DNA from: an uncultured Synergistales bacterium
GTDB taxonomy: Bacteria > Synergistota > Synergistia > Synergistales > Aminobacteriaceae
NCBI GenBank assembly: GCA_905233565.1
Contig: CAJOCL010000002.1
Coordinates: 79,988 to 143,987 of the forward strand
Direction of reading: 5' to 3'
Length of the DNA stretch: 64,000 nucleotides
The notes below the pieces were generated by a model. It was not told where the DNA came from. It searched no databases and was given only the letters and a program-made list of their open reading frames with translations. Below, piece by piece: positions 19,063 to 22,754 of the stretch (position 1 is its first letter; each line of letters opens with the position of its first letter). A program made the translations under genes and the position numbers.

Positions 19063-20340
19063 ATGTACTTAACTGTAAAAAATCAACTTAGGAATATTTC
19101 AGCCCGTGAATACAAAACTCTTAGAACTCTCTGTAGACTGTCAAAGAACCTATATAATGAGGCTCTCTACAGCGTAAGACAGTATTATTTTACTGAACAT
19201 AAATATTTACACTATGAGAGCAATTACCATGTCTGCAAGTCAAGCAAAAATTATCAGGCTTTAGGCTCTGACATAGCACAGCAGACGTTGAAAGCCGTTG
19301 ACCGTTGCTTTAAGTCCTTTTTTGCACTGATTAACAAAGCAAAATCAGGCTCTTATCAGTTCAATATGATAGAACTTCCTCACTACCTTAACAAAGAGGG
19401 CTGGTTTTGTCTAATAATTCCGCGCGTCAAAATTAAAGACGGTTATTTTACGCTTCCAATGTCAAGAAAGTTCAAGAAGGAACACGGTAAATTAAGATTT
19501 AACATTCCGCCTAACATTGAGGAAAAGGAAATTAAACAGGTACGTATTCACCCGCGAAATAATGCCCGTTTCTTTGAGATTGAATATATCTATGAACAGC
19601 CTAAAATTAAAGCAGACGTTGATCCTAAAAAATTTTTAGGTGTTGACTTAGGACTTGATAATCTTGCAGCCTGTGTAACAAACGAGGGGGCGTCTTTTAT
19701 TTTGGACGGTAAACAAATAAAATCTTACAATCGTTTGTATAATAAAGAAAATGCAAGGCTTCAAAGTATAAAAGACAGACAAAAAATCAAAGGATTTACG
19801 ACACAGCAATATCTCAATCTCAGGAAGCGTAATGCACGTATTAATTACGCAATAAGCGTAGCGGCCAGAAAAATTATTACCTACTGCATTAATAACCATA
19901 TAGGGAATATAGTAGTTGGTTATAATCCCGACTGGAAACGAGATATAAATATCGGTACACATAACAACCAGAATTTTGTACAAATTCCACACGGTCTGCT
20001 CCGTGAAAAATTAGCATATCTGTGTGAAATTTGCGGCATAAAGTATATTGAACAAGAAGAGAGTTACACATCAAAGGCATCTTTTTTTGATAATGACAAC
20101 TTGCCGACATATAACGCCGATAATCCGCAGAGCTATAAATTCAGCGGAACGAGAACAACACGCGGACAGTACAAGACATCAACAGGCTATATTTTCAATG
20201 CGGATATAAACGGAGCATTAAACATATTAAGGAAATGTAATCTGGTGAACCTTTGTGTTCTACAGGATAGAGGCTGTGTAAACCAGCCCCGTCGAATAAG
20301 GCTATACAAAGCAAACTTCAACGAAAGCTCACGACTTTAG
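19063..20340 (+). CDS. tnpB: TnpB family RNA-guided endonuclease/transposon protein (zinc-finger cysteines absent)
   Basis: KKFLGVDLGLDNLAACV (RuvC-I D), YIEQEESYTSKASF (E), NADINGALNILRK (D). Confidence 0.9.
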   Translation: MYLTVKNQLRNISAREYKTLRTLCRLSKNLYNEALYSVRQYYFTEHKYLHYESNYHVCKSSKNYQALGSDIAQQTLKAVDRCFKSFFALINKAKSGSYQFNMIELPHYLNKEGWFCLIIPRVKIKDGYFTLPMSRKFKKEHGKLRFNIPPNIEEKEIKQVRIHPRNNARFFEIEYIYEQPKIKADVDPKKFLGVDLGLDNLAACVTNEGASFILDGKQIKSYNRLYNKENARLQSIKDRQKIKGFTTQQYLNLRKRNARINYAISVAARKIITYCINNHIGNIVVGYNPDWKRDINIGTHNNQNFVQIPHGLLREKLAYLCEICGIKYIEQEESYTSKASFFDNDNLPTYNADNPQSYKFSGTRTTRGQYKTSTGYIFNADINGALNILRKCNLVNLCVLQDRGCVNQPRRIRLYKANFNESSRL

Positions 20341-20355
20341 TCGTGAGTTGTTTAC
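20328..20355 (+). ncRNA. Right-end hairpin and presumptive 3' end of omegaRNA scaffold
   Basis: Perfect 8-bp stem CTCACGAC/GTCGTGAG with TTTA loop, tnpB TAG stop lies in loop/stem; followed by TTGTTTAC. Confidence 0.45.
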
Positions 20356-20390: not shown

Positions 20391-22754
20391 ATGAAGGGTA
20401 AGTTGTCAATGTCAAAACGTAAAATCTTTATTCTCTCAGCCATTTTTATAATTATCATGTTTTCGGCCTCTTATGCCGAAAACAGTACAGTTGACAAATT
20501 AATTCAGGCTTTCAACGGAAAACGGATTGCAGTTCCTGTCGGTTCAGCTCATGTTGACATCGTAAAGAGAACTCTGCCTGATTCACAAATTTTCTATGTC
20601 GATGTCCTCGCTAACATGATTCAAGACCTTAAATCAGGAAAAGTTGACGCTGTTACATTAGATGAGCCGGTAGCCCTTGAAGTTATTCATGAAAATCCTG
20701 AACTTGAAATCGCTGACGGCTATTTGGAAATGCTTCATGATGCTTTCATTTTCCCAAAGTCTTCTGGCAATGAAAAACTTTACACGGAGTTCAACGACTA
20801 TATAAAACGCATAAAATCAGACGGGACATCAACGAAGTTGCTAAACATATGGCAGGGCAGTGATGACAGCTTAAAGATTGTTGAAGACTACGAAAATCTA
20901 CCCGACACAAACGGCACTATAAGGCTTGCCGTAGATAATGAAGCCCCGCCGTTCGTCTATGTCAAAGACGGCAGATTAACAGGATTTGATATTGACGTAA
21001 CAACACGATTCTGTCGGGAAAAAGGTTACAGGCCGGTTTTTCAGGAAATGAATTTCAGCGGGATAATTCCTTCCGTTCAGAGCGGAAAAAGCGACATGAG
21101 CGCATATACTCTTACAATAACTCCTGAACGTTCAGAGAGTGTCAGATTCTCAGAGCCTATTTATTCTTTCGGCGTTTCTCTTGTAATCCTGAAATCTCAT
21201 GACAAACCGGAAAACTCAATCAGCAGCTCTTCAGATAAAAGCCCAAATCATTCAGGCCTGTCTGAGCTTGACGGGAAAAAAATCGGAGTTCAGACGGGAA
21301 CAACGGCAGCGGAACTTGTGCCGGAAAAAATACCGTCAGCAGAATTATCTTTTTATGAGTCTCTGACTGACGAACTTACAGCCTTACGAGCCGGGAAAAT
21401 TGACGCTCTTGCCTGTTCTCTTCCCGCTGCAATACACATGATGAATGAAGATTCAAATCTTGAAATGATCAGCCCCCCTTTGCGTGAAACATATCTTTAT
21501 GCAATGTTTCAGAATACGGAAAAAGGTAAAAAACTCTGCGATGAGTATTCAGCCTTCTTAAAAACTTTATGGGACAACGGAACTATTGACGCTCTTAATA
21601 AAAAATGGCTCGGCTCTGATGACAGCAAAAAAACTCTTGATGATTATTCAAACCTTCCTGCTGTAAACGGATCATTAAAATTTGCCGTTGACCCTTCACT
21701 GGTTCCGTTTTCTTACGTCAGGGATAACAGGCTCATCGGATATGATGTTGAAATTGCTGTCATGTTCTGCAAAGCTAAAGGCTATTCGCTTGAAATTCAG
21801 GCAATGTCGCTTTCAGCTCTTATAACGTCAGTTAAAACAGGAAAAAGCGACTTTTCATGCTCAATGAACATAACTGAAGAACGCTCAGAAAACACCATAT
21901 TTTCAACAACTCCTACGATAAAATCAGGAAATGTTCTCGTTGTCATGAAATCATCAAATTCAGCGTCCGTTCCTGTCTCTGATTCTGGTTCTGTTCAGTC
22001 AAAAAATATTCTTTCATTCTGGGATGATTTAGTGCTGAGTTTTCAGAAGACTTTCATACGCGAAAACAGATGGCTTCTTTTTGCTGAAGGTATTGCAAAC
22101 TCGATGACTATAACGGTTATGTCGATATTTTTCGGAATACTCTTGGGCTTCAGCGTCTTCATGGCCTGCAGGAACGGCGGAATCATAGCGAACATCGCGG
22201 CTAAATTCTCAGTATGGCTCATAAAAGGCACTCCGACCGTTGTTTTATTAATGATTTTGTACTATGTCATATTTGGCCGTGTAAGCATAAGCGGTATAGC
22301 GGTGTCAATAATGGCATTCACCCTGACTTTTGCGACATCAGTATATAGAATGCTTACGTTCGGAACGGGAGCAGTTGACAAAGGACAGACAGAAGCGGCA
22401 TATGCTCTCGGATTTACGGATATGCAGACGTTCTTTACTATTGTACTTCCTCAGGCAGCCCTGCACTTCATGCCGTCATTCAAAGAAGAAGTAACCATGC
22501 TTATAAAGTCAACATCAATCGTAGGATATATAGCGGTTCAAGACTTAACGAAGATGGGCGATATTGTTAGAAGCAGGACTTATGAAGCATTTTTCCCGTT
22601 AATCGCCGTAGCTGTTATATATTTTATTATGGCCGGAATGCTTAACTTCGTTTCGGAAATAATACACAGGCGAATAACTCCCTCAAGAAGGAAGCCTGAA
22701 GATATACTGCGCGGAATTAAGCCCGAAGAATGCCGCGCCGAAAATCCTGCATGA
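20391..22754 (+). CDS. Amino-acid-type ABC transporter fusion: multi-lobe SBP_bac_3 periplasmic region plus HisM-type permease
   Basis: Signal peptide; repeated TIRLAVDNEAPPFVYVKDGRLTGFDID and SLKFAVDPSLVPFSYVRDNRLIGYDVE; permease EEA-like loop AYALGFTDMQTFFTIVLPQAALHFMPSFKEEVTMLIKSTSIVGYIAVQDL. Confidence 0.92.
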   Translation: MKGKLSMSKRKIFILSAIFIIIMFSASYAENSTVDKLIQAFNGKRIAVPVGSAHVDIVKRTLPDSQIFYVDVLANMIQDLKSGKVDAVTLDEPVALEVIHENPELEIADGYLEMLHDAFIFPKSSGNEKLYTEFNDYIKRIKSDGTSTKLLNIWQGSDDSLKIVEDYENLPDTNGTIRLAVDNEAPPFVYVKDGRLTGFDIDVTTRFCREKGYRPVFQEMNFSGIIPSVQSGKSDMSAYTLTITPERSESVRFSEPIYSFGVSLVILKSHDKPENSISSSSDKSPNHSGLSELDGKKIGVQTGTTAAELVPEKIPSAELSFYESLTDELTALRAGKIDALACSLPAAIHMMNEDSNLEMISPPLRETYLYAMFQNTEKGKKLCDEYSAFLKTLWDNGTIDALNKKWLGSDDSKKTLDDYSNLPAVNGSLKFAVDPSLVPFSYVRDNRLIGYDVEIAVMFCKAKGYSLEIQAMSLSALITSVKTGKSDFSCSMNITEERSENTIFSTTPTIKSGNVLVVMKSSNSASVPVSDSGSVQSKNILSFWDDLVLSFQKTFIRENRWLLFAEGIANSMTITVMSIFFGILLGFSVFMACRNGGIIANIAAKFSVWLIKGTPTVVLLMILYYVIFGRVSISGIAVSIMAFTLTFATSVYRMLTFGTGAVDKGQTEAAYALGFTDMQTFFTIVLPQAALHFMPSFKEEVTMLIKSTSIVGYIAVQDLTKMGDIVRSRTYEAFFPLIAVAVIYFIMAGMLNFVSEIIHRRITPSRRKPEDILRGIKPEECRAENPA

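Follow-up and report, generated by a model that had tools for sequence, protein, structure and literature searches.

Evidence for tandem circularly permuted substrate-binding domains fused to an ABC importer permease in an uncultured Synergistales bacterium

Introduction

The closest described counterpart of the locus reported here is GlnPQ of Lactococcus lactis, in which two largely independent substrate-binding domains, SBD1 and SBD2, stand in tandem N-terminal to the permease and are connected by linkers of 14 and 19 aa (PMC8025302). Circular permutation is known from another importer receptor: the type I glucose-binding protein TpMglB-2 (Tp0684) of Treponema pallidum is permuted by nature and has been labeled “type Ic” by its authors (PMC4990184). 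Natural permutation is rare in binding proteins, and this type I sugar binder was the sole case in the papers that we searched. Transporters with one, two or four binding sites have reportedly been described by van der Heide and Poolman. Neither a type II binding protein with natural permutation nor an array of more than two substrate-binding domains was found in the open-access papers searched (the subscription literature lay outside the scope).

Here, we describe a gene from a 64,000-nucleotide stretch of DNA (the window) of an uncultured Synergistales bacterium. Its product very probably carries two self-contained SBP_bac_3 domains in tandem, each circularly permuted, fused to a permease. 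Permutation (TpMglB-2) and tandem domains (GlnPQ) are each already known; it is their combination, in an amino-acid-type family with arrays of up to 12 domains, that appears to be new. An initial annotation of the window had pointed out the half-domain order but read it out of phase. The architecture is genuine and unusual, resembling a fused importer of the GlnP kind made from hinge-permuted SBPs, and we met no report of it in the open-access papers.

Results and Discussion

Architecture of the window gene

The gene is an intact open reading frame of 787 aa at window positions 20391-22754 (+), with its ATG at 20391, a second in-frame ATG at 20409, and a stop codon that ends at 22754. The chain runs from a signal peptide through a lobe2-like half, lobe 1, a linker, lobe 2 and lobe 1 to a HisM/GlnP-type permease. 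Pfam detected three SBP_bac_3 stretches (193 bits in total, E 1.8e-57) and one BPD_transp_1 domain (aa 586-767, E 3e-14), and the permease matches solved polar-amino-acid permeases (4yms). Together with lobe profiles and phmmer searches against the PDB, these results agree with the half-domain order of the initial annotation, which had listed lobe2 / complete SBP / lobe1 / permease and had assigned the C terminus to a HisM-type permease. Our segmentation placed lobe 2 with the lobe 1 C-part at aa 42-157 and 294-409, the lobe 1 N-part at aa 174-269 and 427-521, and the permease at aa 555-763. The parts are as follows:

20391..20480 (+), signal peptide (MKGKLSMSKRKIFILSAIFIIIMFSASYA) without lipobox, from sequence; the model gives a helix at 9-25, then disorder
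20511..20861 (+), unit 1, first part: lobe 2 and the lobe 1 C-terminal segment, aa 41-157
20862..20909 (+), unit 1 permutation connector, aa 158-173, joining the lobe 1 C-part to the lobe 1 N-part; pLDDT 90-96
20910..21197 (+), unit 1, second part: lobe 1 N-terminal part, aa 174-269
21198..21260 (+), between-unit linker, aa 270-290, Ser-rich, largely disordered in the model
21261..21617 (+), unit 2, first part: lobe 2 and the lobe 1 C-part, aa 291-409
21618..21668 (+), unit 2 permutation connector, aa 410-426, including DDYSNLP
21669..21953 (+), unit 2, second part: lobe 1 N-part, aa 427-521
21954..22052 (+), flexible linker toward the membrane domain, aa 522-554
22053..22751 (+), HisM/GlnP-type permease domain (BPD_transp_1), aa 555-787

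With two tandem SBP_bac_3-type domains, flexible linkers and a HisM/GlnP-type permease on one exported chain, the protein resembles GlnPQ. It differs in that the GlnPQ domains are canonical in lobe order, whereas each domain of the window protein is permuted. Tandem sensor domains of the substrate-binding protein (SBP) type also occur in BvgS and EvgS, but these are sensor kinases with domains in canonical order and no permease.

Permuted order of the lobes

Homology to SBP_bac_3, the type II amino-acid-type family of GlnH, ArtI and ArgBP (PF00497), is present in both lobes, and the difference from these proteins lies in the order of the lobes along the chain: the canonical lobe1N-lobe2-lobe1C is absent, and the order is lobe2-lobe1C-lobe1N. 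In phmmer searches against the PDB, aa 36-156 matched residues 110-232 and aa 174-272 matched residues 9-108 of AncQR (4zv1), an ancestral arginine/glutamine binding protein. Because both halves are placed on one single solved protein, the matches reflect genuine homology rather than chance, and aa 36-272 span one complete SBP end to end with its halves exchanged; the word “permuted” in the initial annotation is correct. The cut falls near position 109 of 4zv1, at the passage from lobe 1 to lobe 2. Unit 2 (aa 291-521) is built in the same way, with lobe 2, the lobe 1 C-part, a connector and the lobe 1 N-part, and the same swap was seen in standalone homologues when they were matched with NCBIfam models of canonical SBPs.

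Like TpMglB-2, the window protein combines natural circular permutation with the binding protein of an ABC importer, a bilobed closing fold and a receptor tethered to the membrane, the last two as predicted on the window side. TpMglB-2 is of the type I (cluster B) sugar-binding fold, whereas the window protein is type II SBP_bac_3; the former is permuted inside the N-lobe and has an extra fourth crossing, whereas the window units are cut at the first lobe crossing and, unlike TpMglB-2, are tandem and fused to a permease.

The segments between the lobes fall into two kinds. Within units, the connector is 15 to 19 aa long (SD 0.8; 109 cases), carries a DYxxLP-like motif in 90 and has a pairwise identity of 0.40. 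Between units, the linker varies from 0 to 50 aa (SD 6.4; 86 cases), is rich in Ser, Thr and Pro, never carries the motif (0 cases) and has an identity of 0.15. In the window protein, it is this between-unit linker that occupies the site of the passage from lobe 1 to lobe 2 in a canonical SBP.

Covariation between lobes was compared for the two possible pairings in 105 lobe2-lobe1-lobe2 triplets, with a modest effective number of sequences of 63. Mean mutual information (MI) was 0.129 for lobe 1 and lobe 2 of the same unit vs 0.086 for lobe 1 and lobe 2 of the following unit, and when the proteins were resampled 60 times, the difference stayed positive every time. Among the 30 strongest covarying pairs, the lobe 1 C-part was mildly enriched under the permuted pairing (14 pairs vs 8.8 expected); under the alternative pairing it was involved in 6 of 30. 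Duplication of whole lobe2-lobe1 modules could contribute to the covariation excess. In trees of lobe-concatenated sequences, built to see whether the permutation had a single origin, the canonical group lay on one side of a branch once long branches had been dropped, but with a support of 45.

Structure prediction

Modeled alone (aa 34-275, from 114 aligned units), unit 1 was predicted by AlphaFold as one compact body, with a pLDDT of 95.7 and a pTM of 0.90. Foldseek matched this model over its full length to the bilobed SBP/HisG/LysR-type fold with TM scores of only about 0.4-0.5; such scores would be expected for a permuted chain, which Foldseek cannot align as such and can match only in part or lobe-shifted. 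Homology to a canonical SBP also extends over aa 174-412, and a model of this segment alone might likewise come out folded.

In the full-length model, built from an alignment of 49 rows that were all tandem pairs, aa 41-270 and 290-522 and both permutation connectors were confident, whereas aa 271-285 and 523-540 were disordered. Lobe contacts were deduced from pTM, pLDDT and Foldseek scores and are to be read as predictions. Canonical SBPs aligned to the full-length model over approximately 174-208 columns with a TMt of 0.3-0.4 and an rmsd of 13-17 Å, and its top matches were the tandem periplasmic sensor domains of BvgS and EvgS. Judging from these whole-model scores, the middle lobes are probably not placed as in a canonical SBP. 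A model had been proposed at the outset as a check on whether the outer halves pack together; its disordered residues 271-285 and ordered connector speak against such nesting, and the prediction for unit 1 speaks for the permuted unit.

Relatives, standalone forms and arrays

Strong matches to the periplasmic part were found in 32 of the 188 Synergistota genomes searched, 29 of them in the genus of the window genome. In the relatives, the signal peptide is followed by (lobe2-lobe1)n and then by the permease; n ranges from 1 to 12. Four fusions to the permease have a single unit (L098, L099, L143, L155); in these there is therefore no inner domain to wrap and no other pairing within the chain. 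Standalone lobe2-lobe1 proteins of approximately 265-290 aa also occur, mostly 78-89% identical over residues 1-266 across the genomes sampled from the window's genus, and present as well in four genera of the same family (g19, g21, g26, g27). The single-unit fusions and the standalone proteins together identify lobe2-lobe1 as the basic unit.

The longest array (L086:1349-11104, 3,252 codons, on an 84-kb contig) comprises 12 units, in comparison with two domains per chain in GlnP, and other relatives have 8, 7, 6, 5, 4 or 3. Contig-end fragments aside, only one array (L072) is irregular, with one lobe 2 missing or undetected. In the three long arrays measured, identity between units lay mostly near 36-40% and did not exceed 65%; faulty assembly therefore does not account for the repeats. 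A convincing lipobox was found only in the 12-unit array (VAAC, at the end of the signal peptide), so that its chain may be held by a lipid anchor at one end and embedded in the membrane at the other. Of the other arrays, most begin with an ordinary signal peptide. Sequence and prediction together show the order of parts, the permuted unit, its conservation and the arrays of the relatives.

In most other genera, the best matches span the lobe 1 half only, and the examples fetched were canonical proteins. All of the named loci retrieved with the protein (14/14) come from Synergistaceae, Synergistales or Fretibacterium metagenome-assembled genomes, mostly from goat or deer digestive tracts, which places the window genome among gut Synergistaceae. 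Permuted homologues were also sought beyond the phylum in 72,556 plasmid records, where the near-full-query matches listed came in two pieces, as in the canonical order.

One of the single-unit chains (L099:2489-5191, 901 codons), from another family of the order, carries one permuted SBP, the permease and an ATPase; a 996-codon frame overlaps the 3′ end of this fusion gene.

Alternative readings

Three other explanations deserve consideration. The lobes might pair in trans, between neighboring units or between the chains of a permease dimer, with the units still permuted. Long linkers would permit such an exchange, and domain swapping is seen in the dimer of the homologous Thermotoga maritima arginine-binding protein. 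We nonetheless regard this as very unlikely, given that unit 1 alone is predicted to be compact (pTM 0.90) and that a conserved connector of fixed length suits closure within one molecule.

Somewhat less probable still is the nested arrangement proposed in the initial annotation, with a complete canonical SBP in the middle (aa 174-410) and the outer halves assembled into a second binding domain around it. Canonical profiles do align continuously over aa 174-410, but they do so because a tandem of permuted units read out of phase resembles a normal SBP; the “complete SBP” is thus only apparent. Neither the single-unit relatives nor the standalone permuted proteins contain an inner SBP, and the crossing between lobes of the supposed inner domain would hold a variable Ser-rich linker that is disordered in the model (aa 271-285). 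Unit 1 is predicted to fold alone, canonical SBPs fit the full-length model poorly (TMt 0.3-0.4), and covariation is weaker for the nested pairing of lobes. A second domain wrapped around the first is therefore very unlikely.

Least credible of all is a decayed gene, in which gene damage left functionless truncated binding-domain remnants before the permease. In its favor, the window copy has no ATPase gene beside it, and a TnpB-type transposon gene ends 50 bp ahead of it; against it, the 787-codon frame is open, the domains are ordered, both units are complete in the permuted sense, and homologues are conserved in dozens of species.

Ligand positions, ATPase and proposed mechanism

In amino-acid SBPs, we take an Arg in lobe 1 to bind the α-carboxylate of the ligand and an Asp in lobe 2 to bind its α-amino group. 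Unit 1 shares both with GlnH, ArtI and ArgBP, having Arg247 at the carboxylate-binding and Asp91 at the amino-binding position, which suggests from sequence that its ligands are amino-acid-like. Unit 2 keeps the Arg and has Ser at the Asp position. Both residues are present in 38 of the 114 aligned units, and the positions vary by unit type (for example, His with Asp in 17), suggesting that different units take different ligands.

The initial annotation had noted that no ATPase gene adjoins the window gene; indeed, the next genes encode a KDPG/KHG aldolase and RsfS. In nearly all relatives with room downstream, the array gene is overlapped or immediately followed by a gene for an ABC ATPase of approximately 360 aa. 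The window genome (2.02 Mb, 34 contigs) encodes one other permease fusion, a three-unit paralogue on contig C23 (L031:3826-6990), whose permease shares 78% identity with the window permease and which has its own overlapping ATPase gene (L031:6983-8068, ABC_tran). The search for a partner thus yielded a candidate, and GlnPQ, too, has a separate ATPase subunit, although the candidate gene here lies behind the paralogue rather than adjacent. The simplest account is that the window copy probably shares the ATPase encoded beside the C23 paralogue.

On the reading with two tandem permuted domains, which we hold to be very probable, the window protein unites receptor and channel in one subunit of a type I ABC importer that belongs to the polar-amino-acid family. 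Each SBP_bac_3 domain is permuted at the first crossing from lobe 1 to lobe 2, so that the chain passes through lobe 2 and the lobe 1 C-part, crosses the conserved connector of 15-19 aa and ends with the lobe 1 N-part. The two domains sit head to tail on a flexible linker, and a second linker tethers them to the membrane domain. If the system works as GlnPQ does, each domain would close around a ligand of its own and hand it to a permease dimer, with the ATPase supplied in trans, probably from the gene beside the C23 paralogue. We infer the homodimer, the amino-acid-type ligands, the sharing of an ATPase and transport itself as steps of this mechanism.

Permuted proteins in the window genome

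Thirty SBP_bac_3 stretches were found in the window genome. Among its standalone SBPs, classified by the pair of lobe profiles, 11 have the permuted order (two of them on contig C14) vs five with the canonical order. With the two permease fusions added to the 11, the permuted form is the commoner one in this genome.

On balance, we lean toward a history in which the chain ends of an amino-acid-type SBP moved from lobe 1 to the hinge in a lineage of Synergistaceae, the permuted form became the dominant SBP, and arrays of up to twelve nonidentical permuted domains per permease then arose, so that a homodimeric importer would bear as many as 24 receptors differing in specificity. The amino-acid-type fold, permuted at the hinge, makes up a dominant family of paralogues here, giant receptor arrays among them. 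Because standard domain annotation is out of phase with such arrays, it returns half domains together with a spurious domain in the middle. This family provides a test case for the relation of hinge topology to SBP closing and for several receptors sharing one permease, as well as a natural template for hinge-permuted biosensors.

Two clusters on contig C16 (L036, 4033-6730 and 12949-16416) encode six standalone permuted SBPs in total (VAVTGD type), with no permease or ATPase nearby within the stretch. Their neighbors encode a SpoIIE/dCache/HAMP sensor phosphatase, an LPG-synthase-like protein, an EamA protein and a D-Ala-D-Ala dipeptidase, and these SBPs are possibly sensory rather than transport proteins. 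Two adjacent canonical-order paralogues (283 and 282 aa; L034:1465-3186) lie behind a 410-aa open reading frame on a 3.3-kb contig that carries no permease.

The gene upstream of the window array gene (19063-20340, +) encodes a 425-aa TnpB/OrfB_IS605-type protein with a Cas12f1-like TNB domain. It ends 50 bp 5′ of the array gene and has a hairpin at its 3′ end (20328-20347). On contig C23, a second TnpB gene (L031:690-1883) precedes the paralogous array by two genes.
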